A DNA stretch of 64,000 nt, taken from the NCBI RefSeq assembly GCF_003841505.1, contig NZ_REGA01000004.1:186001-250000 (forward strand), written 5' to 3'. The notes beneath the pieces are model-generated. The model was not told the DNA's origin and made no database searches. It was given only the letters and a program-made list of their open reading frames with translations. This DNA comes from Natrarchaeobius chitinivorans. GTDB taxonomy: Archaea; Halobacteriota; Halobacteria; Halobacteriales; Natrialbaceae. How positions within the stretch are numbered: the stretch's first letter is position 1; each line of letters opens with the position of its first letter. This document shows, piece after piece, positions 23,903 through 36,136 of this stretch. The translations under genes and the position numbers were made by a program.

Positions 23903-24000
23903 AGGGCGTGACTTATATGATCTGCTATTAACTACGTGACGGATGCCTCCGGATAAATTCAACTCCGGCGTTCGGGGAGGGATATCGGTTCGATCGTCGA

Positions 24001-24345
24001 TTACTCGGTTCGAAGCGTTTCGCCCAGTTCGTCTCGCTCCTCGAGTTCGGCGAGGATATCCGACCCGCCGACGAACTCGCCGTCGACGAACGTCTGCGGG
24101 ATCGTCTCCCAGCCGCTGTGTTCCTCGAGTGCGACGCGGTACTCGTCTAAGGACTCGAGGACGTCGACCGTCTCGTACTCGTCGCGGTACTGGTCGATCA
24201 GTCCGAGCGCCCGTCGCGAGAACCCACACTGGGGCATCAGTTCCGTCCCCTTCATGAAGAGGACGACGTCGTTCTCTACGATGACCGTTTCGACCTGCTC
24301 GTCGACCTCCTCCTGATCGAGGCCCTGATTCGGTGGGAAGTCCAT
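24001..24345 (-). CDS. Monothiol glutaredoxin (Grx4/GrxD type)
   Basis: A 114-residue glutaredoxin with the monothiol CGFS motif (C40-S43) in KGTELMPQCGFSRR. The glutathione/thiol-binding TIPQTFVDGEFVGGSDI is near residues 82-98. The CGFS class carries or transfers [2Fe-2S] clusters rather than acting as a disulfide reductase. Haloarchaea use gamma-glutamylcysteine instead of glutathione, so the thiol ligand may differ. Start at 24345 (MDFPPNQG) is the usual start; an in-frame ATG at 24426 would add 27 atypical residues. It follows menE on the same strand by about 100 bases. Confidence 0.88.
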   Translation of the reverse strand: MDFPPNQGLDQEEVDEQVETVIVENDVVLFMKGTELMPQCGFSRRALGLIDQYRDEYETVDVLESLDEYRVALEEHSGWETIPQTFVDGEFVGGSDILAELEERDELGETLRTE

Positions 24346-24448
24346 GGATCCCGGTACGGCAGACAGCGGGATAGGCCTTGCGTCATGACTCGCGAGCGTC
24401 CTCGCCGTCTCACTCGGATCCGTCATCGTCAGGCCGGATCCGTCATCG

Positions 24449-26167
24449 TCACGTCGGGCCCGACACGTCAGCACCGTCTTCGCGCAACCGCTCGCGGACC
24501 GCCTCCCGATCGACGGTTCCCGAAGCCGTCCGCGGGAGGGAGTCGACGACGGCGATCGTCTTCGGGTGTTTGAATCCGGCGAGTCGATCCCGGCAGTGCT
24601 CGAGAACCCCCGACGGCTCGAGTTCCCGCTGTCGCGTTTCGAAGTCGCCGCCATCCTCCGTCGAGTCGTCGCCGTCCTCTGCCGAGTCGTCGGCATTCTC
24701 CGACGAATCGTCGCCGTCGACCACCGGTACCACGAGCGCGGAGACGCGTTCTCCCCAGCGTTCGTCTTCGAGACCGACGACCGCGGCGTCGTCGATGGCC
24801 GGATGGGAACGCAGGGTGGCGATCACCTCGCCCGGATCGACGTTCTCGCCGCCGGTGACGATCCGGTCGCTCCGTCGGTTGAGAATCCACAGCCGGCCGC
24901 CGTCGTCCCTGTAGCCGACGTCGCCCGTGTGAAATCCGAGTTCGGAGACGGCGTCTGCGGTGTGATCCGCGTCGAGATATCCCGGCGTTACCGTCGGCCC
25001 GGAGACGACGAGTTCGCCCGGTTCACCCGGTGCAACCGGCTCTCCACCGTCGTCGACGATCGAGACGTCGGTCACCACCAGCGGCCGGCCGACGGTCCCC
25101 TCGTACTCTCGCGTCTCCGCCGGCGTCGCGGTCGCGACCTGCGAGGCCGTCTCGGTCATCCCGTAGGTCGGGTAAACCGGCACGCCGGCCTCGAGACAGC
25201 GCTCGAGAAGGTCGCTCGAGGCCGGTGCACCGCCGAGCAAGACGAATCGAAGCGCCTCGGGCGGCCGCCAGCCGGCCTCGAGCAGCCGTTTGCACATCGT
25301 CGGGACGAGCGAGACGCCGGTCACCCCGTACTCCTCGATGACGCGGCCGGTATCCCCGGCGGAGAACTCCCGCTGGATCACGACGGTCGTCCCGTACAGC
25401 ACCGAGCGAACGACCGGTGCTAGCCCGCCCATGTGGTACATCGGGAGACAGCACAGCCACCGATCATCGGGCGAAACGCCGAGGCGGAACGCGGAGGCGG
25501 TCGCGCTGGCGACGACGTTGCCGAGCGTCAGGCGGACGACCTTCGGCTCTCCCGTCGTTCCCGACGTCCACACGAGCAGGTGGGTTCGATCCGACTCGAG
25601 TGAAATCGGCTCGAGATCGGCGAGCGAGTCCGACTCGAGATCGGCGGCCGGATTCGACCGGGGGCCGGAGTCGGTGAACGGCCGAACCGACGATACGCCG
25701 TCGCGGCTCGGTTCGTCGACGGACGCGATCGGGCAGTCCGCGGCGACCGAGATCTCGAGTGCGCGCTCCTCCGTCGCCGCCTCGCAGACGATCGCGTCCA
25801 GGCCCGTTCGTTCGGCTTTCGACTCGAGTTCCGCCACCGTCTCCCGGACGTTCAGCGCGACGACGACGATCCCGCGGCGCATCGCGGCGAAGTAGGTCGC
25901 TGCGAACGCGGGCCGCGTGTCCATCACGATACCGAGACGGCGGTCGGCGCCGCCGGCTGCGATTTCGCCCTCGTGACCGGCGATATCGGACTCCTCGCGG
26001 ACCAGCGCCTCGAGACGCCGTGCGACGCCATCGACGCACCTGTCGAACTCGGCGTAGGTCCACTCCTCGCCACTGTCGGCGTCGACGACTGCCAGTTCGT
26101 CGGGCGACGTCGACGCGCGGTGAGCGAGGAGATCCCGGGTCGGCCACTCGAGCGGACCGATCGTCAC
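24449..26167 (-). CDS. menE: o-Succinylbenzoate-CoA ligase
   Basis: A 572-residue acyl-adenylating enzyme that activates o-succinylbenzoate with ATP and CoA in menaquinone synthesis. The P-loop is WTSGTTGEPK; A5-type YPTYGMTETASQ, the hinge GFHTGDVGYRDDGGRLWILNRR and the C-terminal catalytic lysine region GFKHPKTIAVVDSLPRTASG are all present. An acidic insert of about 30 residues (DDSSENADDSAEDGDDS) interrupts the C-terminal domain. I chose the GTG at 26167 because it overlaps the menC stop as GTGA, the four-base coupling seen between menC and menA; a GTG at 26176 is the alternative. Last of the menA-menC-menE operon. Confidence 0.93.
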   Translation of the reverse strand: MTIGPLEWPTRDLLAHRASTSPDELAVVDADSGEEWTYAEFDRCVDGVARRLEALVREESDIAGHEGEIAAGGADRRLGIVMDTRPAFAATYFAAMRRGIVVVALNVRETVAELESKAERTGLDAIVCEAATEERALEISVAADCPIASVDEPSRDGVSSVRPFTDSGPRSNPAADLESDSLADLEPISLESDRTHLLVWTSGTTGEPKVVRLTLGNVVASATASAFRLGVSPDDRWLCCLPMYHMGGLAPVVRSVLYGTTVVIQREFSAGDTGRVIEEYGVTGVSLVPTMCKRLLEAGWRPPEALRFVLLGGAPASSDLLERCLEAGVPVYPTYGMTETASQVATATPAETREYEGTVGRPLVVTDVSIVDDGGEPVAPGEPGELVVSGPTVTPGYLDADHTADAVSELGFHTGDVGYRDDGGRLWILNRRSDRIVTGGENVDPGEVIATLRSHPAIDDAAVVGLEDERWGERVSALVVPVVDGDDSSENADDSAEDGDDSTEDGGDFETRQRELEPSGVLEHCRDRLAGFKHPKTIAVVDSLPRTASGTVDREAVRERLREDGADVSGPT

Positions 26168-27306
26168 TCCTCCCACACCCCCTCGACGCCCAGTCCCTTC
26201 GCCTGCGGGACGACCGCTGATCCGCGATCGAGAAAGACCGGATCGCGCCCCAGGTCCTCGGCGAGCAACTCGGCCGTCGCGAGGCCACAGGGTGGCACGT
26301 CCGGGATCGACGCCGCGAGGTGGACGGCGGCCGTCCGCGCGACGACGCCGTCGATCGTCGTCGTCACGATCGGCGTCATCTCGAGTTCCCTGACCCAGAT
26401 CGCGATCTTGCGCGCGACGTCGATCCCGCCCAGCGCCATCGGTTTCAAAACGACCGCGTCGGCCGCTCCGGCTTCGCAGATCGCGTCGACGCCGTGCTCG
26501 AGCAGTCCCTCGTCCAGTGCGATCCGAACGTCCTCGCTTCGCTCCCGAAGCGCCGCGTGGCCCTCGAGCGCACCGGCCGGAAGCGGCTGCTCGAGGATCG
26601 AGAGGCCGACCTCGTCGAACGCCTCGAGGGCGGTTTCGGCCTGTTCGTACGTCCAGGCCTCGTTCGCGTCCGCGCGGAGTTCGATGTCCTCGCCGGCTGC
26701 CTCGCGGACCCGCCGGACGCGTTCGACGTCCTCGTCGACGCTTCGCAGTCCGACTTTCAGCTTACAGGACCCGAACCCGCGGTCGACCGCCTCGCGTGCG
26801 TTCACCGCCGAATCGGACGGGGTGCCGTCGCCGATCGTCGCGTTCACCGGAACCCGACCGATCATCGGTCCCTGACCGAGATATCGGTACAGCGGCGTCG
26901 CCTCTTTCGTCGCTTGCAGGTCCGTCAGCGCGAGCGACACCGCGTGCCGGGCCGCAACCTGGCGGTCGACCGCCTCGAGCGCGTCGCGCGGCCCGCCACT
27001 CCGAAGCGCGTCGGCCGCTCGCTCGAGGGCCGCCTCACAGTCCTCGCGGGATTCGGTCCAGCCCGCAAGCGGGGTCGCCTCGCCGTAGCCGACAGCCGCC
27101 GAACGGCCGACGGTAGCACCGATATTCGTCGCTTTTTCGTCGGTCGCTTCGCCGCCGTCGCCCCGCTCGCCCGGCCCGGGACCGTCGCTGATCCGGACCA
27201 GAAAGCCGTCGCGACTCTCGATCGTTCCGTCGGCTGTCTCGAGGGGGCTCGAAAGCGACAGCGAGAACGACCGGTACTCGAGAGAGTGCGTCGAATCGTC
27301 GGTCAT
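26164..27306 (-). CDS. menC: o-Succinylbenzoate synthase
   Basis: A 380-residue enolase-superfamily enzyme that dehydrates SHCHC to o-succinylbenzoate. Catalytic and metal residues are visible in order: the lysine motif KLKVG, the Asp of LRADANEAW, the Glu of LSILEQPL, an Asp in ALDEGLL, and the second lysine in VVLKPMALGG. An acidic, Gly-rich loop (GPGPGERGDGGEATDE) lengthens the N-terminal capping domain. The ATG at 27306 overlaps the menA stop (ATGA), which fixes the start. The middle gene of menA-menC-menE. Confidence 0.93.
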   Translation of the reverse strand: MTDDSTHSLEYRSFSLSLSSPLETADGTIESRDGFLVRISDGPGPGERGDGGEATDEKATNIGATVGRSAAVGYGEATPLAGWTESREDCEAALERAADALRSGGPRDALEAVDRQVAARHAVSLALTDLQATKEATPLYRYLGQGPMIGRVPVNATIGDGTPSDSAVNAREAVDRGFGSCKLKVGLRSVDEDVERVRRVREAAGEDIELRADANEAWTYEQAETALEAFDEVGLSILEQPLPAGALEGHAALRERSEDVRIALDEGLLEHGVDAICEAGAADAVVLKPMALGGIDVARKIAIWVRELEMTPIVTTTIDGVVARTAAVHLAASIPDVPPCGLATAELLAEDLGRDPVFLDRGSAVVPQAKGLGVEGVWEE

Positions 27307-28250
27307 ACGATCACCAGTCCCGCCGCGAACAGTATCGCATAGAGTGCGAGCAGTTTCCCGGTCGCCTCGAGCGCCGGGTTGAGCGCGTCGCCGTCGGTGC
27401 GGGTCCAGACGGTCCGTGCCGTCAACGCGGCGTACGGCAGCGTCGCGAGCGGCAGCAAGACGCCGGGACCGACGCCTTCGCCCAGCCAGAACCAGACCGG
27501 AATCACGTAGGCGAGGGCGATCATCGCGGTGTACTCGAGGCGACTGATACGGTAGCCGAATCGGACCGCGAGGGTTCGTTTGCCGGTCTCGGCGTCGGTC
27601 TCCCTGTCGCGGACGTTGTTCACCACGAGGATAGCTGTCGAGAGCCCCGCGACGGGGAGGCTGGCGAGGACTGCTTCGCGAGTGACCGTCCCCGGCGGAA
27701 CCGTCGTCGGGACTCCCGAAATCGGGAGGGCGGCGACCGCCTGCACGTAGTAGGTGCCGACGACGGCCACGAGGCCGAAGAAGACGAAGACGAACAGGTC
27801 GCCGAGGCCGTGATACCCAAGCGGGTACGGACCGCCGGTGTAGGCCCACCCACAGAAGACGCTCACGAGACCGATCACGAGGATCGGCAACCCGCCGACG
27901 AAGACGAGGTACGTCCCGGTGACGATCGCGAGTCCGAACGTCACGATCGTTGCGAGTTTGACCTGCTCTGGCGGGATGATTCCCGCCTGTGTAACCCGTG
28001 TAAACCCGTCTCTGTCCTCCGTATCGGCTCCCTTGATCGCGTCGTAGTAGTCGTTCGCGAAGTTGGTTCCGACCTGGATCAGCGCCGCCCCCACGAACGC
28101 CATCAGCGCCGGTAACGGCGCGAATACGCCCTCGTACATCGCGAGCCCAGTTCCCACGATCACCGGTGCGGCAGCCGCCGGCAGCGTCTGCGGGCGGGCG
28201 GCCATCACCCACGCCTTCGTCCGTGACATTTCGACGTCGGCCGTGCTCAT
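27303..28250 (-). CDS. menA: 1,4-Dihydroxy-2-naphthoate polyprenyltransferase
   Basis: A 315-residue UbiA-family membrane enzyme that attaches a polyprenyl chain to dihydroxynaphthoate. Both Asp-rich motifs are present: [14 protein letters not shown] near residue 70 and [15 protein letters not shown] near residue 200. Between and around them are eight to nine hydrophobic helices. I set the start at 28250 ([16 protein letters not shown]). The frame stays open much further upstream, but only through a 25-bp minisatellite, so the extension is not protein-like. First of menA-menC-menE; menB lies 4 kb upstream beyond the iron operon. Confidence 0.94.
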
Positions 28251-28306
28251 TTGCTCGAGTGTCCCACTCGAGAGAGTGTCAACGTTGGCATTGCCACCGC
28301 ACGTGT

Positions 28307-28531
28307 GGGGACACTCTCGAAGGGTACGGCTGGGGACACTCTCCGAGGGGATGGCTGGGGACACTCTCGGAGGGGATGGCTGGGGACACTCTCCGAGGGG
28401 ATGGCTGGGGACACTCTCGGAGGGGATGGCTGGGGACACTCTCCGAGGGGATGGCTGGGGACACTCTCGGAGGGGATGGCTGAGGACACTCCCGAATGGG
28501 ACGACTGGGGACATACTCAAAGGGGACGGCT
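28307..28531. repeat. 25-bp minisatellite, nine units, upstream of menA
   Basis: Nine 25-base units begin at 28307, 28332, 28357, 28382, 28407, 28432, 28457, 28482 and 28507, of the form ggggacactctcNgagggg + atggct. Inner units alternate ctccgag and ctcggag, giving a 50-bp higher-order period. These two heptamers are reverse complements of each other, so neighbouring units can pair into hairpins. The outermost units are diverged, as expected for an old array growing from its centre. Not a CRISPR: no unique spacers. Confidence 0.95.
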
Positions 28532-28616
28532 CAGACGGTTTCTCCTCCGTCAGTTCCGGCACACCGGCGACACGGGCGGCGGGTGTGCCGGGAGATCGGT
28601 ACAGGAATCCGTCTCA
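28531..28616. mobile_element. Stop-anchored palindromic element, copy B (86 bp)
   Basis: The left arm is TCAGACGGTTTCTCC, the right arm read on the minus strand is TGAGACGGATTCCTGTACC, and a G+C-rich stem lies between them (CGGCACACC / GGTGTGCCG). Compared with copy D, the stem bases differ in pairs so that pairing is kept. TGA at 28616-28614 is the stop codon of the cohesin-like gene. It directly abuts the minisatellite on the other side. Confidence 0.75.
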
Positions 28617-29477
28617 GTTTCCGGCCCGTGAAAGCAACAGCGCCGCGGCGATCGCGAGGATAGCGGCCAGTCCGATGAACCCTGAAATTGGGTCTTCGGA
28701 CACCGCCCCGCCCCCGCCGGCGTCATCATCGTCGGAGTCTCCACTCTCCTCGGTGGTCGCGACGTCGGATTCGTCCGCCACTCCGTCGCTTACGTCGTCA
28801 CTCGAGTCGTCGTTTGCCGCGTGATCGTCGGCTCCATCGTCCGCAAACGTCACGCCTTCGGTTTCGTCGTCTCCGTTCCGTTCGTCTCCATCGCTCGACG
28901 GTTCGGCTCCCCCGTCGACGTGAACGGTCGCGTCACGGTCGATGATCGCCTGCGGGTAATCGGTCACGAGGATCGCGGACGCGTCGACGATTTCGATCGT
29001 CTCCGTCGTCGCCGACGCGTCGTCTGCGATCTCGACGGTGAGCGTCGCCGCGGGTTCGGTCGCCGTCGCACCGTCGCCGGATGGAGCACGTTCCTGTTCG
29101 ACCGTCACCGTCCCCGCGTCGTCGTCAATTTCGGCCGTCCCGACGACCTCGGCGTCCGGATCACCCGCCGCGAGCATCTCGCGGTGTTCGACCTCGGTCA
29201 CCGTGAGCACGTCGGCGTCGTACGCGAGTTCGAACGAGATGTCGTCGATCCCGTTCGCGTTGTAATCGCCGTGACTACTCACCAGAAGGTCGAGCGTGAT
29301 CGTCTCGCCGGGATCGGCGTCGGTCTCGTCCGGTTCGAAGTAGAAGATCGTCGTGTTGTCCCCCGCGAGGGCCGGAGCCGAGAGGAGAACGGTGACGGCG
29401 AGACAACACACGATACCGACCGCGAGCGCAACCCCCGCCGTGGAACGACTATGAATTGCCCCGCCGTCTCGCGTCAT
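28614..29477 (-). CDS. Secreted cohesin-like surface protein with C-terminal membrane anchor
   Basis: A 287-residue exported protein. Residues 1-39 form a signal peptide (basic start, then VALAVGIVCCLAVTVLLS, cut after ALA). Residues 42-185 look like a cohesin-type beta-sandwich: TIFYFEPDETDADPGETITL, DDISFELAYDADVLTVTE, and ITVE-type strands. An Asp/Ser-rich stalk of about 70 residues follows, then a final hydrophobic helix (FIGLAAILAIAAALLLSR). The end resembles a haloarchaeal archaeosortase tail, but I see ISGF rather than PGF, so sorting is uncertain. Its ATG overlaps the upstream stop (TGATG), so it belongs to the iron-related operon. Partner unknown. Confidence 0.72.
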   Translation of the reverse strand: MTRDGGAIHSRSTAGVALAVGIVCCLAVTVLLSAPALAGDNTTIFYFEPDETDADPGETITLDLLVSSHGDYNANGIDDISFELAYDADVLTVTEVEHREMLAAGDPDAEVVGTAEIDDDAGTVTVEQERAPSGDGATATEPAATLTVEIADDASATTETIEIVDASAILVTDYPQAIIDRDATVHVDGGAEPSSDGDERNGDDETEGVTFADDGADDHAANDDSSDDVSDGVADESDVATTEESGDSDDDDAGGGGAVSEDPISGFIGLAAILAIAAALLLSRAGN

Positions 29478-30829
29478 CACTGCACCTCTGGAACCGTCAG
29501 TTCGACCGGCTCCATCTCGAGAAACGCGGTTTCGTAGCCCCGGTGGCGGGCGACCTGGGGTGGCGACTCGATCGTGATCGTCACCGTATCGTCGGCCCGG
29601 ACGTCGGCGATCGACGCGCCGTAGTGGAGCCCGTACTCGCTATCGAGGATCTGCTCGAGGGTCGGTTCGGCGACGACCTCGCCGTCGCGTTCGATCGTTA
29701 CAGTCATGGACATATCCGCGAGCGGAACGCGGTTGTACGGCGTCCGCGGCGAGACGAGCAGATACCGCTCGTCGCCGTCCGCCAGCCGGAATCCCGGTTC
29801 GGTAACGGTTGACAGAAACGCGGCGTCACCGCTTCGCGGGAGATCCGCCGTTTCCTCCGGCCGGTCGTCAGCCCGGGACTCGAGGAGGAGCGTTCCGGGG
29901 TACGCCTCGACATCCGGCAGGGCCGAGTAGGGAACGTGATGGTGGCCCTCGTGATCGTCGTGATGACTGTCGTCAGCGTGATCGTCGTGATGACCGTCGT
30001 CAACGTGACCGTGTCCGTCTCCGTGTTCATCACCACCCATGTCGTCTCCGTGGTCCCCGTCTTCCATGCCCCCGCCGTGATCCATCGGTGCGAGCGCACC
30101 GCGGCGCCCCCAGTCCTCTTCGTCCAGATACTCGACGCCGCCGACGACCTCGTGGCGGAACTCGTCGTCGTAGACGAACTCGAACGTCGCCGTCACGCCC
30201 TCCTCGAGTCGGCCGGCGAGATCACCGGTCTTGCGGGTCGATACTGGCGGGATCGTGACCTCGACGGAATAGGTTCCGTCCTCCGGCAGCGAGACGTTGT
30301 CACCGAAGTGAAAGCCCATCTCCTGGGAGATCATCGGCCACGGCGAGCGCGGCTGTCCGACTTGCTCACCGTCTCGAGAGATCCGCAGTTGGGTCCCGTC
30401 GTCGATCGGGAGGACGACGCCGGATTCGTCGTCCCAGAGGGTAAACATCATGTGGACGCCGCGGCCGTCGTCGGGGTCGACTCGTTGGACCTCGTCGTCG
30501 CTCCCACCGCCACCCGCGATCACCCAGAACGGGTGGGGGTACGAGAGCATCGGCGCGAGCCGAAGGTCGCCGGCCGCGATGGGCTCGAGCATCCGCATCG
30601 CTTCCCTGTGGGTCGGCACGTAGACGGCGTCCGGCGGGTCCTCGACTTCGACGACCTCGGGGACTGCCATCACGTCGTCGTCGCTGTCGTCGCCGTCTTC
30701 GGGATCGGGTTCGGATCCGTCACCGCTCTCGCCGTCGGTACGCTGACAGCCCGCGAGTGCGAGCATCCCTGTCACGGCAGCCGTCCGTCGTGTGAAGGTT
30801 CGTCGGTCGATGGTGTCGCGTTCCTGCAT
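29477..30829 (-). CDS. Tat-exported iron-binding lipoprotein (P19/Tpd-like) with His-rich loop
   Basis: A 450-residue exported protein. The N-terminus has a twin-arginine motif (DRRTFTRRTAA) and a lipobox LALAGC, so it should be a membrane-anchored lipoprotein. Two immunoglobulin-like Fe2+-transport-type domains are suggested by YVPTHREAMRML, GFHFGDNVSLPEDGTYSVEV and KTGDLAGRLEEGVTATFEF. Between them lies a metal-binding segment at roughly 250-305, in which about a third of residues are His (GHGHVDDGHHDDHADDSHHD). The neighbouring DyP-like gene fits an iron-acquisition role, as in EfeO/EfeB systems. In haloarchaeal annotation it is an 'iron transporter' or DUF7350 protein (from memory). Confidence 0.8.
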   Translation of the reverse strand: MQERDTIDRRTFTRRTAAVTGMLALAGCQRTDGESGDGSEPDPEDGDDSDDDVMAVPEVVEVEDPPDAVYVPTHREAMRMLEPIAAGDLRLAPMLSYPHPFWVIAGGGGSDDEVQRVDPDDGRGVHMMFTLWDDESGVVLPIDDGTQLRISRDGEQVGQPRSPWPMISQEMGFHFGDNVSLPEDGTYSVEVTIPPVSTRKTGDLAGRLEEGVTATFEFVYDDEFRHEVVGGVEYLDEEDWGRRGALAPMDHGGGMEDGDHGDDMGGDEHGDGHGHVDDGHHDDHADDSHHDDHEGHHHVPYSALPDVEAYPGTLLLESRADDRPEETADLPRSGDAAFLSTVTEPGFRLADGDERYLLVSPRTPYNRVPLADMSMTVTIERDGEVVAEPTLEQILDSEYGLHYGASIADVRADDTVTITIESPPQVARHRGYETAFLEMEPVELTVPEVQ

Positions 30830-30876
30830 GTGTCGTATTCGTGTCGTCGTGATAGTCGATTGGTCAGGGCGTCGTG

Positions 30877-32175
30877 TTAGTCGATTGGTTCACGTTCCGA
30901 ATCCGGGTCGGCCGGCGGCAGCGACCGGAGCGAACGGGGCGGAATCAGGTAGTTTCCGCGGCGGTTCACGAAGATGTAGTGGAGGATTCCGTTGTTCGCG
31001 GACGGAACGTCGAGGTCCGCGCCGGTCATCGCCTCCCGGACGCGGACGAACTCGCCGATTTCCCGCTGGATCGACAGAAAGTGCAGACCAGGTCGGTCCC
31101 CGTCGCCGGTGTTGAAGTCCCGCCGCAAAAGCAGCGGTTCACCGTCTTCCCGGGCTCGAGCCGCTTTCTGTGCGTGTCCGACGACGCCGCGCTCCCGGGC
31201 GTCGGCCGCGGTCGCCTCGATGCGTTCGTCGCTCAACCCGTTCGTCGTCTCGAGTCGCTCGCCGACCGATCCGACGAGGTCCCCCTCGGCGTGTTCGGGG
31301 CTGAACATCTTCGAGACGCGCTGGTAGTGGTTGTCCTGTTCGAACCAGACCTCGAGTTGCAGATCCATCGACGAGACGTGCTGGGTCGTGCCGCCGGCGA
31401 AGGGACCGTCCTCGATCGTCACCCGGTCTTCCGTCGCCTGACTCTCCCGAAACCCCGAGCGAAAGCCCATGAAAAACGGTGCCTCCTCGGGAACCGAGTC
31501 GGGGACGCCCGAGAGGTCCGTCCGGTCGGCGGGAAGCCCCTCGCCGACGAACCCCGTCCGCCGCCGATCGTCCAGCCGGTCGAAGACGCTCCCGAGGTCC
31601 GTTTCGACGTCGACGCCGTTTACCGTCTCTCGGTCGCCGACCAGCCCTTCCTCCGCCTCGAGGACGACCTCGGGACGGTCGCTCGCGAGGTGGACGACGG
31701 CGTCGAACTCGTCGAACGTCGGATTCTCCCGATCGGTCAGCGCGACCGGTTCGGGGAGGTCGACCGAGTCCGGGATCGATCCGTGGTACCGCCGGAAGTA
31801 CGCCGGCGTGTACCCGATCGTAAAGACCAATCCGTCGTTGCTCCACTCGTAGGCCCGCTCGAGGGTTCGCAGCGCTGCTTCCGTCGTCTCACGGGCGTCC
31901 TCGTCCGGTCCTTCGTGCAACGAGAGTGCGAGTAGAACGTGGTGGGCCGGCAACTGGACGTTTCCGTCGTCGTCGCTCGAGAGCGCGCCGTTCCAGGCGT
32001 GTTGGCGTCCGGGGAGTGAGTCGGGATCGTCCGTTCCAGGCGGCGCGTCGACACCCGACCTCTCGTCACCGCCACCGACTGCGTCCAGACACGCCGAGAG
32101 GGCGCTCGCGCCACCCGCGGCTACGAGCGCTCGGACGTACTCACGGCGCGACAGCGAGGACCGATCGGGTGCCAT
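30877..32175 (-). CDS. Tat-exported DyP-peroxidase-like protein (EfeB-like)
   Basis: A 432-residue exported protein beginning with a twin-arginine signal (SLSRREYVRALVAAGGASALSAC, a possible lipobox). The fold looks like a dimeric alpha/beta-barrel peroxidase: FTIGYTPAYFRRYHG, EAPFFMGFRSGFRESQ, then DFNTGDGDRPGLHFLSIQ and the C-terminal NNGILHYIFVNRRGNYLIPP. The canonical GXXDG heme motif is not evident, so heme chemistry is uncertain (DUF7405 from memory). Known EfeB proteins take iron from heme or oxidise Fe2+. First gene of a three-gene operon; 47 bases separate it from the iron-binding lipoprotein. Confidence 0.75.
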   Translation of the reverse strand: MAPDRSSLSRREYVRALVAAGGASALSACLDAVGGGDERSGVDAPPGTDDPDSLPGRQHAWNGALSSDDDGNVQLPAHHVLLALSLHEGPDEDARETTEAALRTLERAYEWSNDGLVFTIGYTPAYFRRYHGSIPDSVDLPEPVALTDRENPTFDEFDAVVHLASDRPEVVLEAEEGLVGDRETVNGVDVETDLGSVFDRLDDRRRTGFVGEGLPADRTDLSGVPDSVPEEAPFFMGFRSGFRESQATEDRVTIEDGPFAGGTTQHVSSMDLQLEVWFEQDNHYQRVSKMFSPEHAEGDLVGSVGERLETTNGLSDERIEATAADARERGVVGHAQKAARAREDGEPLLLRRDFNTGDGDRPGLHFLSIQREIGEFVRVREAMTGADLDVPSANNGILHYIFVNRRGNYLIPPRSLRSLPPADPDSEREPID

Positions 32176-32479
32176 CACTGACAGGAGTTCGGGGACGGAA
32201 CGCCCAAAGCGTTGCGCTTCGCGTCGAAACTACCGCGGCTGGCGACGGCCACGGACACCCAGACTCGACGCCAGAAGACGCCAAACCCTGATCTCGAGAT
32301 GGAACGGCCGGGTCACCGAGCGCTACCGGACACACAGATAGCGGCAGGTATTGCGAGAACAACCGCAGTCAGCCACTCGAGTCATGCTGGCCGACGTATC
32401 AGACGGATTGCTGTCACTGTTTGCCGGCGCGACCGGACGCCGTCCCGCTCGCTCCGACAAGGACGTACAGCAAACCGTA
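32176..32479. other. Intergenic region between the iron operon and menB
   Basis: Just over 300 bases. Its right-hand third is occupied by palindromic element copy C. The rest, upstream of the DyP-like gene, shows no gene. AT-poor throughout, with no clear TATA box. Confidence 0.4.
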
Positions 32480-32482
32480 TCA
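32399..32482. mobile_element. Stop-anchored palindromic element, copy C (84 bp)
   Basis: The left arm is TCAGACGGATTGCTGTCAC. The right arm read on the minus strand is TGATACGGTTTGCTGTACG. The centre is diverged but still G+C-rich. The TGA of the right arm (32482-32480) is the menB stop codon. Length and both arms match copies D and E. Confidence 0.82.
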
Positions 32483-33385
32483 GTAGTGCCAGGGAAACTC
32501 GTCGAACTCCGGCTCTCGGCCCTCGACGAAGGCGTCCCGCCCTTCTTTTGCCTCGTCCGTCATGTAGCCGAGGCGAGTTGCCTCACCGGCGAACACCTGC
32601 TGGCCGACCATGCCGTCGTCGGTCATGTTGAACGCGTACTTGAGCATCCGCATCGCAGTCGGGCTCTTCGAGTTGATGCGCTCGCCCCACTCGAGGGCCG
32701 TCTCCTCGAGTTCGTCGTGTGGGACCGCCTCGTTGACCATTCCCATCTCGGCGGCCTCCGCTGCCGAGTAGGTCTTTCCGAGGAAAAACACCTCGCGGGC
32801 TTTCTTCTGGCCGATCTGTTTCGCGAGGAACGCCGAGCCGAAGCCGGCGTCGTAACTCGCGACGTCCGGATCGGTCTGGAGGAACTTCGCGTGCTCGGCG
32901 CTTGCAAGCGTCAGGTCACAGACGACGTGCAGCGAGTGCCCACCGCCGACCGCCCAGCCGGGGACGACACAGACGACCACCTTCGGCACGTGGCGGATCA
33001 GTCGCTGTACCTCGAGGATGTGGAGCCTGCCCTGTTTCGACGCGCGCTGGGACTCGTTTTCCCCGTCGCCCTCGTACTGGTAGCCGTCGTCGCCACGAAC
33101 CGTCTGGTCACCGCCGGAGCAAAACGCCCAGCCGCCGTCTTTCGACGACGGGCCGTTTCCCGTCAGCAGGATACAGCCGACGTCAGTCTGTCGTTTCGCG
33201 TGATCGAGTGCGTCGTATAGTTCGTCGACCGTCCCCGGGCGGAACGCGTTCCGGAGTTCGGGGCGGTCGAACGCGATTCGCACCGTTCCGGAATCGACCG
33301 CACGGTGGTACGTGATGTCCCGAAACTCCGCGTCTAGGTCCTCGACCGGTTCCCACTGACTTTCGTCGAAGAGCGCTGAAACCAT
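32480..33385 (-). CDS. menB: 1,4-Dihydroxy-2-naphthoyl-CoA synthase
   Basis: A 301-residue crotonase-fold enzyme that closes the naphthoate ring in menaquinone synthesis. MenB-specific signatures are clear: WAFCSGGDQ, PGWAVGGGHSLHVVCDLTLA and DVASYDAGFGSAFLAKQ, with the C-terminal EGRDAFVEGREPEFDEFPWH. The start at 33385 (MVSALFDESQWEPV) is preferred over an Arg-rich upstream extension. The stop codon is supplied by element copy C. It is separated from menA-menC-menE by the iron operon. Confidence 0.95.
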   Translation of the reverse strand: MVSALFDESQWEPVEDLDAEFRDITYHRAVDSGTVRIAFDRPELRNAFRPGTVDELYDALDHAKRQTDVGCILLTGNGPSSKDGGWAFCSGGDQTVRGDDGYQYEGDGENESQRASKQGRLHILEVQRLIRHVPKVVVCVVPGWAVGGGHSLHVVCDLTLASAEHAKFLQTDPDVASYDAGFGSAFLAKQIGQKKAREVFFLGKTYSAAEAAEMGMVNEAVPHDELEETALEWGERINSKSPTAMRMLKYAFNMTDDGMVGQQVFAGEATRLGYMTDEAKEGRDAFVEGREPEFDEFPWHY

Positions 33386-33562
33386 CGGGTGAGTGTGGCC
33401 GGCCGGACGTGAAATAGGTTCTCGTCGCGGATGCGGTTCACCCCTGTCGGAACGCGACGACGGGGTGAAACCGGGGTCGACCGTCCACAGCCACCGACCA
33501 GCCGTCCACAACAAGCGACCGACCGTCCGCACCGACTACCGGAATGTTCGTCGCGTCGGTCG

Positions 33563-33961
33563 TCACCGACCGCCTTCCTCGAGGAACTCGAGAAAGACGT
33601 CCTCGGCGTCGTCGTCGTACGCGAGTTCGATGCGAAACTGCAGGCGCGACACGACGTCGAGACACAGGTCACCGGTCTGGACAGGCTTGACTCGAACGAC
33701 GTCGCCGTACTGTGTGGACTCGATACCCACGACCTCGGCTTCGTAACACGATTTGGGAACGGTCGTCGAGCCGGTGAGTTCGACCCGTCCGTCGCCGAGA
33801 TATTCGACCGCGTATTTGTCACCGGCGTCGGGGTCGCCCGTGTCGATCTCCGATTCGAGTTCGACGATCCGGGGGCCGCCGGTAGCCGACGCCGTGGTCG
33901 CGACCGCCGTTCCTGCGAGTATCGATGCACCGATCGCCTCGAGCGCCGTTCGGCGTCTCAT
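33563..33961 (-). CDS. Small secreted haloarchaeal protein, unknown function
   Basis: A 132-residue protein with an export signal: MRRRTALEAIG, then a hydrophobic stretch ending ATTASA, compatible with twin-arginine transport. The mature part is about 105 residues, predicted beta-rich, with two cysteines (SCYEAEV and DLCLDVV) that could form a disulfide outside the cell. No domain was recognised. Stands alone upstream of the menB promoter region. Confidence 0.65.
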   Translation of the reverse strand: MRRRTALEAIGASILAGTAVATTASATGGPRIVELESEIDTGDPDAGDKYAVEYLGDGRVELTGSTTVPKSCYEAEVVGIESTQYGDVVRVKPVQTGDLCLDVVSRLQFRIELAYDDDAEDVFLEFLEEGGR

Positions 33962-34043
33962 AGCAGCCTAGTTTGCACCGCTCCTGGGGGTATATGTTCA
34001 CCATAAAGAGTTTGATGTCGAGAGGGACTCCGGTGGAATAACG

Positions 34044-35171
34044 TCAGTCCGAGTGGTGGTCGATCCGTGGTGCTGGTTCGGTTTCGAGCGAGGGCGCTTC
34101 GAGTTGTACCGAGCGGCCGAGTTCACCCGACCGGTAGATCGCGTCGATAACCCGCTGGACGAGCAACGCTTCGTCGAGCGTGTTCGTCTCCGGGTCGGCG
34201 TCGTTCGCGATCGCACGGAGGAACTCCTCGTCCTGTTCTGAGTACCCCGTGACCGTCGGGTCACCGTCGAGAGCGACGTCCGCGTAATGGTCACAACCTG
34301 CCGTGCCGGCCTCGAGAATCTTCAGTTCGGTTCCGCCGATGTCGAACTGCGCACCCGCCTGCGTGCCGCGGACGCGAAAGTCCATGCTCTCCTCGCGGTT
34401 GGTCGCCCACGCCGCCTCGAGTGAAATCGTCTGTCCGCTCTCGCATCGGATCAACGCGGTGACGGAGTCGTCGACCTCGTACGTTTCGCTTTCTGCGTTC
34501 CAGTTGTCGCCGAACCCGTCGGGGTCGGCGTACTCCTCCTGACTTCCGAACGTGGTGCGGGTCGTGCCCGAGACCTCGGTTATCTCGGGGAAATCGAGGG
34601 CGTAGAGCGCGAGGTCGAGCGCGTGGACGCCAATGTCGAGCAACGCGCCGCCACCGGATAGATCCGGATCGGTAAACCACGAACCCGGCCCGGGGACGCC
34701 ACGTCGCCGAACGTAATTCGCCTCGACGTGCGTCAACTCGCCGAACCGGCCGCGCGCAGCGTACTCCTCGAACATCGCCATCGACGCCGCGTGACGGTTG
34801 TGAAAGCCAACCATACAGGTTCCGTCCGCCTTCTTCGCGGCGGTTTCGATCCGTTCTGCGCTCTCGAGCGTGTGGGCGAGGGGTTTTTCAACGAGGACGT
34901 GACAGCCGGCCTCCAGCGCGTCGACGGCGATCGGTTCGTGAAACCGGTTCGGAGTCGCGATGACGACTGCGTCGACGGCGTCGTCGACGACGAGCCCCTC
35001 GTGGGTTTCGTAGGTGCTCGCGGAGAACTCGTCGGCGAAGCGCCGCCGCTGGGCCTCGACGAGGTCGGCTCCGGCGACGACGTCGGCCCCGAGTTCCTCG
35101 AGGCTTCGAGCGTGGAGGGTTCCCATGCCTCCGAGCCCGACGATTCCCACCCCGATCCCCGCGCCGATCAT
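34044..35171 (-). CDS. Gfo/Idh/MocA-family oxidoreductase
   Basis: A 375-residue NAD(P)-dependent sugar or inositol dehydrogenase-type enzyme. The Rossmann loop is GVGIVGLGGMGTLHA, followed by the family motif EKPLAHTLESAE (EKP) near residue 95. The C-terminal domain has GGGALLDIGVHALDLALY, with the Asp and His typical of the active site. Divergent from a ThuA-like gene across a 272-base intergenic region. The Gfo/Idh-ThuA pairing is common in bacteria and archaea and points to catabolism of a sugar derivative, though the substrate is not visible. Confidence 0.9.
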   Translation of the reverse strand: MIGAGIGVGIVGLGGMGTLHARSLEELGADVVAGADLVEAQRRRFADEFSASTYETHEGLVVDDAVDAVVIATPNRFHEPIAVDALEAGCHVLVEKPLAHTLESAERIETAAKKADGTCMVGFHNRHAASMAMFEEYAARGRFGELTHVEANYVRRRGVPGPGSWFTDPDLSGGGALLDIGVHALDLALYALDFPEITEVSGTTRTTFGSQEEYADPDGFGDNWNAESETYEVDDSVTALIRCESGQTISLEAAWATNREESMDFRVRGTQAGAQFDIGGTELKILEAGTAGCDHYADVALDGDPTVTGYSEQDEEFLRAIANDADPETNTLDEALLVQRVIDAIYRSGELGRSVQLEAPSLETEPAPRIDHHSD

Positions 35172-35443
35172 GGAGAAACACCTGATTTCTCGGGTGTGAG
35201 AGTGAGCGAGCGGTGAGAAATGAGCCGTTTCGCCGTTGGTTGTCCGTGAGTCCAGATTTCCATGTGAGTACGCAGTCGGCGATCAAAATAAGGGTTGTGA
35301 CTGCTTAATAACCTCATTTTACAACACATTCAGTATAAACAATCTGTTTCTACTACGAGTTTTCGAAACGTTGTCCAGATGGTTGATCGGTTCAATTCTC
35401 GAACCAGCCGACCTAAGGGCGTGGCCGATGGACGACAGTCACC
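35172..35443. promoter_or_regulatory. Divergent control region of the Gfo/Idh-ThuA pair
   Basis: The middle of this 272-base spacer (35285-35375) is far more AT-rich than its surroundings. It contains tataaaca near 35334 and gttttcgaaac near 35358. A small inverted repeat GGTTC-aattctc-GAACC lies at 35389-35405, close to the ThuA start. A shared regulator for both genes is plausible; no regulator gene is adjacent. Confidence 0.45.
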
Positions 35444-36136
35444 ATGGACGTCACGGTCTGGAACGAGTACCGACACGAACGGGAGGACGAGGACGTCGCT
35501 GCGATCTATCCGGACGGCATCCACGCCGCGCTCGCCGACGTCTTCGCCGACGACCACGAGGTCGAAACCGCGACCCTCGAACAGCCCGAACACGGCCTCA
35601 CGGAGGACCGCCTCGAGCGGACTGACGTGTTACTGTGGTGGGGACACGAAGCCCACGACGAGGTCGAAGACGAGATCGTCGACCGCGTCCAGGAGCGCGT
35701 TCTCGAGGGGATGGGCCTGATCGTCCTCCACTCGGGTCACTACTCGAAACCCTTCAAGCGGCTCATGGGAACGAGCTGTAGCCTCCAGTGGCGCGAAGAC
35801 GGCGGAACGGAGCGACTGTGGGTCGTCGACCCCGGTCACCCGATCGTGGACGGGATCGGAGAGTCGATCGAACTCCCGGAAACCGAGATGTACGGCGAGC
35901 CGTTCGACGTCCCCGAACCGGACCGGTTGGTGTTTACCAGCTGGTTCGAAGGCGGGGAAGTGTTCAGAAGCGGCTGTTGTTACCGTCGAGGGAGCGGCCG
36001 GATCTTCTACTTCCGACCCGGCCACGAGACGTATCCGATCTACGAGAACGAGGAGATCCAGCAGGTGCTTTCAAACGCCGTCGAGTGGGCGGCCCCCACC
36101 GAGGGCGGAGTCCGGTCGTTCGGCGAGCGGAAATAG
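35444..36136 (+). CDS. ThuA-domain protein
   Basis: A 230-residue protein of the ThuA (trehalose utilisation) superfamily, which has a class I glutamine-amidotransferase-like fold. Clear family segments are [10 protein letters not shown] at the start, [31 protein letters not shown] and [11 protein letters not shown], with [14 protein letters not shown] and [14 protein letters not shown] at the C-terminal end. ThuA is linked to conversion of trehalose-derived or other sugar compounds. It pairs divergently with the Gfo/Idh oxidoreductase. The start fits the usual M-D-VTVWNE. Confidence 0.9.

Follow-up and report, generated by a model that had tools for sequence, protein, structure and literature searches.

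The locus examined here raises the question of why a cohesin-like surface protein (COH) should be encoded directly behind a His-rich metal-binding lipoprotein (P19-DUF7350), and of which metal such a gene set might handle. It lies in the window, i.e. the whole stretch of 64,000 nucleotides from Natrarchaeobius chitinivorans that was analysed, in which a preliminary description had seen a surface iron-capture complex. The account that we favour, tentatively, is of a three-gene, membrane-anchored module for extracytoplasmic metal capture and relay, composed of a copper-type P19-DUF7350 protein, a DyP-like DUF7405 protein and COH as an adaptor. In reading order on the minus strand, with domains beneath their genes, the features are:

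32480-33532, minus strand: menB, first in reading order
30877-32178, minus strand: DUF7405 gene, a Tat-type lipoprotein and distant DyP/EfeB relative (Pfam DUF7405 E 3e-156; Dyp_perox_C 0.008)
29477-30829, minus strand: P19-DUF7350 gene, 450 aa, a lipoprotein of two beta-sandwich domains with a Tat-type signal (twin Arg, LAGC)
30149..30604, minus strand: P19/FtrA-fold domain, residues 76-227 (VIA Z 12.5 to FetP 3nrq)
29936..30085, minus strand: His-rich loop between the domains, residues 249-298, from sequence, with a 27-bp tandem repeat at 29950-30012
29495..29866, minus strand: DUF7350 domain, residues 322-445 (Pfam), possibly P19-like as well, in which H429 is invariant
28614-29480, minus strand: COH gene, 288 aa, with Sec-type signal, cohesin domain, acidic linker and C-terminal anchor helix
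28911..29357, minus strand: cohesin domain, residues 42-190 (pLDDT 93-98; VIA Z 18.1 to 6kgf and 4dh2)
28689..28910, minus strand: acidic linker, residues 191-264, of low pLDDT and with length not conserved
28623..28685, minus strand: ISGF and terminal helix (predicted helix 269-286), a variant of a PGF-CTERM-like tail
27303-28247, minus strand: menA, last in reading order

The open reading frames of COH and the His-rich lipoprotein are present as first described, and COH does appear to be translated straight after its neighbour, since its start lies on the P19-DUF7350 stop codon; the junction reads CAGTGATGACG, where the stop TGA of P19 shares 4 nt with a COH start at GTG, or 1 nt if the ATG that follows is the start. 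The third gene, which the preliminary description had mentioned only among its checks, is DUF7405, upstream of P19-DUF7350. As read from sequence, the N-termini of DUF7405 and P19-DUF7350 carry a twin-arginine motif and a lipobox (SAC and AGC, respectively), and that of COH a hydrophobic signal ending in ALA; all three proteins are probably located on the outer face of the membrane, and an exported, membrane-anchored metal-binding gene set is well supported. Sigma-70 and terminator scans, which are ill-suited to archaea, gave nothing above shuffles, no Rfam family was found in positions 24000-36000 of the window, and no clear conserved block was seen upstream of DUF7405 across nine sequences. 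Between COH and menA, at 28306-28531, there are nine 25-bp tandem repeats, six units of which are free of mismatches to the pattern; the relatives L067, L068 and L101 have no like unit (best 16-17 of 25), and an element lying immediately upstream of menA may have given rise to the repeats by expansion.

The pairing was to be judged in part by whether the genes co-occur elsewhere, and they do. Among the 80 named loci, which are the best 80 of 146 from a P19 profile search, COH is directly downstream of P19-DUF7350 in 36, and in 32 of these 36 a start codon gives the 4-nt overlap, a script having selected whichever start lay closest to it. Both DUF7405 and COH accompany P19 in 31 of the same best 80 of 146 loci, COH alone in 5, DUF7405 alone in 22 and neither in 22; because L183-L186 are alike, these locus counts are not independent. 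At the level of genomes, DUF7350 and DUF7405 are each present in 120 of the 125 examined from the family, both in 119 and neither in 4 (Fisher p 2.6e-6). A men gene is near 20 of the 31 triads found in the best 80 of 146 loci and near none of the other 11, implying that the triad moves as a unit and that it is probably by chance that it sits among menaquinone genes here. Loci of the Natrinema type retain P19 between menB and menA but carry neither DUF7405 nor COH at that site. Nor are COH-type genes confined to the vicinity of P19, as L084, L090, L092, L094 and L100 show. At L084, L088, L090, L092, L094, L100 and L103, COH, alone or with P19, adjoins NurA and HerA-like genes, in most cases with a DUF7344 regulator. 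In Halovenus-type loci the gene after P19, where COH would stand, encodes a small lipoprotein with no Pfam match (L159:7098-7640, L161:7110-7649 and L152:6799-7323); BLASTP ruled it out as a COH relative. A DsbD_2 gene is near P19 in 4 of the best 80 of 146 loci.

By predicted fold and family profile, COH is a cohesin. Its Pfam Cohesin score is 25.6 bits (E 1.5e-5; cut-off 24.1), a PDB search with a profile of 26 COH homologues reaches cellulosomal cohesins at E 1.6e-9, and every one of the 50 Foldseek matches listed for the model is a cohesin, with a best VIA score of Z 18.1 (rmsd 1.9 over 136 residues). The cohesin-type beta-sandwich originally proposed, to be abandoned had the domain not modelled as such, is thus upheld. 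The same fold is found in cellulosomal type I cohesins (Z 18.1) and in the archaeal, non-cellulosomal cohesin of Archaeoglobus fulgidus (2xdh; Z 16.2); compared with known cohesins, COH is distinguished by having a single cohesin domain, its own C-terminal anchor, a fixed metal-protein neighbour and no dockerin in its own genome. Conserved surface positions look for the most part like general cohesin framework and were not taken to mark a binding face. The COH of the window does have the long acidic stalk, but this is not a general property, its length ranging from 9 to 74 residues across 23 homologues. Of the 36 COH-linked named loci, 31 contributed COH proteins to the alignment (A4) and 23 to a stalk correlation, in which stalk length was uncorrelated with the His content of the P19 loop (rho 0.09, n=23), and the idea of the stalk as a spacer matched to that loop was rejected. 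ISGF does replace PGF before the predicted C-terminal helix, as had been noticed; among 32 COH sequences including that of the window, the tail motif is PGF in 21, SGF in 2, AGF in 2, HGF in 1, TGF in 1 and absent in 5, and 11 of the 32 match TIGR04126 (PGF-CTERM, an archaeosortase substrate family) at E<=1, the ISGF protein of the window giving no match.

The model of P19-DUF7350 has two well-predicted domains (pTM 0.78), matched in Pfam by Iron_transport (PF10634, E 7.7e-8) and DUF7350 (E 1.2e-52). Both the Pfam match and structure comparison place domain 1 in the P19 fold, with VIA matches to FetP, P19, FtrA and Tp34 (best Z 12.5, rmsd 2.6, 134 residues). It also resembles Helicobacter pylori CrdA, a copper resistance determinant (Z 9.0 over 101 residues), a likeness that is weak evidence, CrdA being shorter and the score near the range of common arrangements. 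The residue map, on which three MAFFT modes agree, covers 44 homologues, L071 and L088 having been excluded from the alignment (A1) for their doubtful long starts. His42, Met88 and His95 of P19, which we take to be its copper ligands, correspond to H126, M166 and H174, each kept in 44/44 homologues. The His that is presumably supplied by the partner in the P19 dimer is missing from domain 1. In the DUF7350 domain, His429, at a like place of a similar motif, is invariant (44/44), and hhalign relates the two domains at probability 85 in forced global mode, the comparison on which a P19-like nature of DUF7350 rests; P19-DUF7350 may possibly be a tandem, pseudo-dimeric P19. A direct comparison of DUF7350 with FtrA gave no useful alignment, and the DUF7350 half retrieved only general Ig-like sandwiches in VIA (Z up to 7.4). 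The acidic metal (iron) patch of P19, to which Glu44 and Asp46 belong according to PMC9174327, is not kept: the Glu44 position is M128, Met in 44/44 homologues, and that of Asp46 is T in 22, S in 9, V in 8 and A in 5. Asp92 corresponds to a variable residue adjoining the invariant M171; structures of the E44Q, D92H and M88I variants of P19 have been solved, as entry titles indicate. P19-DUF7350 thus shares the fold and the copper-site His and Met positions of the P19/FtrA/FetP family (FtrABCD, FetMP, P19-cFtr1), and differs from it in the DUF7350 fusion, the His loop and the altered Glu44 and Asp46 positions, as well as in its genomic setting, with DyP-like and cohesin partners in a family of which 125 genomes are without FTR1. 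The genome of the window has a second P19-DUF7350 paralogue, without COH and with a short loop containing CC (G000:C14:19785-20021, L106).

The FTR1/EfeU permease is absent from 125/125 family genomes, including that of the window, with four control genomes positive, and classical P19-FTR1 or EfeUOB iron import was rejected on this ground. Iron capture by another route, in which the His loop and P19 would collect iron, the DyP-like protein oxidise it or free it from haem and COH act as anchor, with an unknown or siderophore-type importer, is nevertheless suggested by the Pfam family name Iron_transport, by the partnership of P19 and DyP proteins in the bacterial iron systems FtrABCD, FetMP and EfeUOB (PMC9174327), and by solved P19-family proteins that, from their entry titles (7r5p, 8t7m), hold copper and iron together. 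We consider it unlikely given the missing permease, the loss of Glu44 and Asp46 and the copper genes that adjoin P19 paralogues; matches to a DtxR-like palindrome pattern also number only two in the window, below chance expectation, neither of them near the operon. Of the surface iron-capture complex first proposed, then, the exported, membrane-anchored metal-binding set stands, while iron as its metal is weakened.

Copper-type genes are near P19 in 10 of the best 80 of 146 loci (L168, L172, L177 and L180-L186), a lower bound obtained with marker queries chosen after looking, from loci showing such genes; they comprise SCO1, CopZ-like HMA, P1B ATPase, halocyanin and multicopper oxidase, the families having been named by Pfam at L182, L168 and L102. 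SCO1 adjoins P19 in 5 of the 40 regions retrieved. For the copy in the window, the copper reading suffers chiefly from the fact that the markers used detected no copper gene at any of the 36 COH-linked loci within the best 80 of 146; the usual neighbours there, men genes and NurA/HerA, are uninformative on metal. DUF7405-P19-P19 sets at L177 and L180-L186 lie on copper-gene islands with a P1B ATPase, halocyanin or multicopper oxidase, which are near-identical across several genera, one being apparently on a plasmid. In Streptomyces, the gene of the DyP protein DtpA shares a copper-trafficking operon with those of the copper lipoproteins Sco and ECuC, and maturation of a copper enzyme depends on DtpA (PMC4736821), so that a set of DyP and metal-lipoprotein genes need not mean iron. 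The likeness of that sco-ecuc-SLI_4212-dtpA operon to the present locus lies in a Tat-exported DyP-type protein beside copper lipoproteins, and is echoed by the SCO1 genes adjoining P19 paralogues in the family, though not the COH-linked copies; neither P19 nor a cohesin is named for it in the passages of PMC4736821 that were consulted.

The second member of the set, DUF7405, is homologous to the DyP C-terminal domain. A profile of 17 DUF7405 sequences aligns with four EfeB proteins (hhalign probability 95.8, E 7.1e-9), and Dyp_perox_C is matched at E<=1 by 7 of the 17 (best 7e-4), the Pfam score of the window protein lying below the cut-off. The Asp of GxxDG and an Arg are presumably the distal residues of DyP-type peroxidases; in 17/17 DUF7405 sequences the position of the Asp in GFKDG of EfeB is S or N, and that of EfeB Arg273 is S, A or E, which makes peroxidase activity doubtful. 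H335 is invariant (17/17), but hhalign does not place it exactly opposite EfeB H329. DUF7405 thus shares its alignment and a Tat signal with the deferrochelatase/peroxidase EfeB, and departs from EfeUOB in lacking the Asp and Arg positions and in having no EfeU in the 125 genomes; our best guess is a haem protein without the ordinary peroxidase residues.

According to the favoured copper-module account, P19-DUF7350 would catch a soft metal, most likely copper, outside the cell at its His/Met site, with the His-rich loop collecting or buffering metal for it. DUF7405, as a probable haem lipoprotein, might be a redox partner handling the redox state of copper, or a supplier of haem chemistry, and COH may be an adaptor, translated together with the lipoprotein and anchored through its own terminal helix, whose cohesin fold keeps at the cell surface either the lipoprotein in its His-loop form or a shared partner. 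What the data establish is the genes and their linkage, the predicted folds, the residue pattern and the lack of FTR1; copper, haem, a redox role and any physical contact are inferred. It counts against this account that His-rich loops are also able to bind Zn, Ni and Fe.

The loop with its many His residues, described from the start, does lie between the P19 and DUF7350 domains, and can readily grow and shrink because of the 27-bp DNA repeat inside it. Among 104 distinct P19 proteins its median His count is 14 with COH downstream (n=51) and 0 without (n=53; Mann-Whitney p 3e-13), L154, whose contig ends 2 bases after P19, being counted as without COH; in DUF7405-linked P19 proteins only, the medians are 15 (40 proteins) and 1 (18). 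Several COH-linked loops have 0-3 His, L109 has 9 without COH, and where copper genes are close by, the loop is often short and rich in Met (e.g. MDMEM). On a quick tree of 103 P19 proteins, from which the loop and L154 were left out, COH status changes at least 8 times; phylogenetic regression gave a COH effect of +2.40 (se 0.39) log2(His+1) (p 1.8e-8), with no added effect of DUF7405 (p 0.75), and simulation gave p 0.0002. A stricter test, by independent pairs and with only 6 of them, was not significant (4.2 in the same direction, 0 opposite, 1.8 without difference; p 0.125). That the His-rich loop goes with a downstream COH is therefore likely but not proven, resting as it does on about 8 switches.

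The shared operon and overlap, loop His content that tracks COH rather than DUF7405, and a genome without dockerin would together fit direct docking of COH on P19-DUF7350, via the His loop or a domain surface, as a cohesin pair without dockerin. We nonetheless regard such docking, which is compatible with the copper-module account and was assessed separately from it, as rather doubtful: the switches are few and the pairs test falls short of significance, COH genes are also found away from P19, and stalk length does not follow loop His.

The dockerin-like partner whose search the preliminary description had advised did not emerge from the genome of the window, where there is no match at E<=1 and a single cohesin above the cut-off; docking by a classical dockerin encoded in the same genome was accordingly rejected. 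Across the family, dockerins are present at E<=0.01 in 59 of 125 genomes, and cohesin matches in 112 of 125, a count that includes unlike multi-cohesin proteins. These dockerins, with the cohesin-dockerin pairs verified in archaea (PMC9012536), lend some weight to the proposal that the surface proteins are merely co-expressed and that COH has a general adhesive role in the envelope or S-layer, binding dockerin proteins encoded elsewhere and having no metal role. This we judge improbable, because not only the genome of the window but also two of the same genus with the triad, G038 (L101) and G040 (L067), lack a dockerin, and because the position of COH behind P19 is near-constant. A 2087-aa scaffoldin-like archaeal protein with 14 cohesin domains is encoded at L193:4662-10925 (minus strand; G032:C1), with others at L104 and L194, and that of L193 is set amid subtilases with type I dockerin ends (Pfam), which together look like a protease counterpart of the cellulosome; PMC9012536 states that large scaffoldins are lacking in archaea, with up to 5 cohesins in ANME.

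The overall results describe known folds in a new combination, in which two defining features of iron systems, FTR1 and the acidic patch, were sought and are missing. In the literature searched, which mostly lacks subscription journals, no paper dealing with DUF7350 or with cohesin domains of haloarchaea came up, nor any description of the COH/P19-DUF7350/DUF7405 gene set. A more specific and speculative possibility, which we hold to be unlikely as yet, is that a cohesin fold now serves, with no dockerin involved, as partner to a metal-collecting loop rich in His; a cohesin-metalloprotein complex, in place of a cohesin-dockerin pair, would then make up a surface copper-handling device together with the DyP-like haem protein. 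The analysis joins DUF7350, DUF7405 and single haloarchaeal cohesins, previously without an assigned joint role, into one testable module, which almost every genome of a large family of haloarchaea carries at least in part. The label 'Fe2+ transport protein' on such proteins may be wrong, and the locus is an instance in which a metal-binding loop, rather than a dockerin, may be what a cohesin works with.
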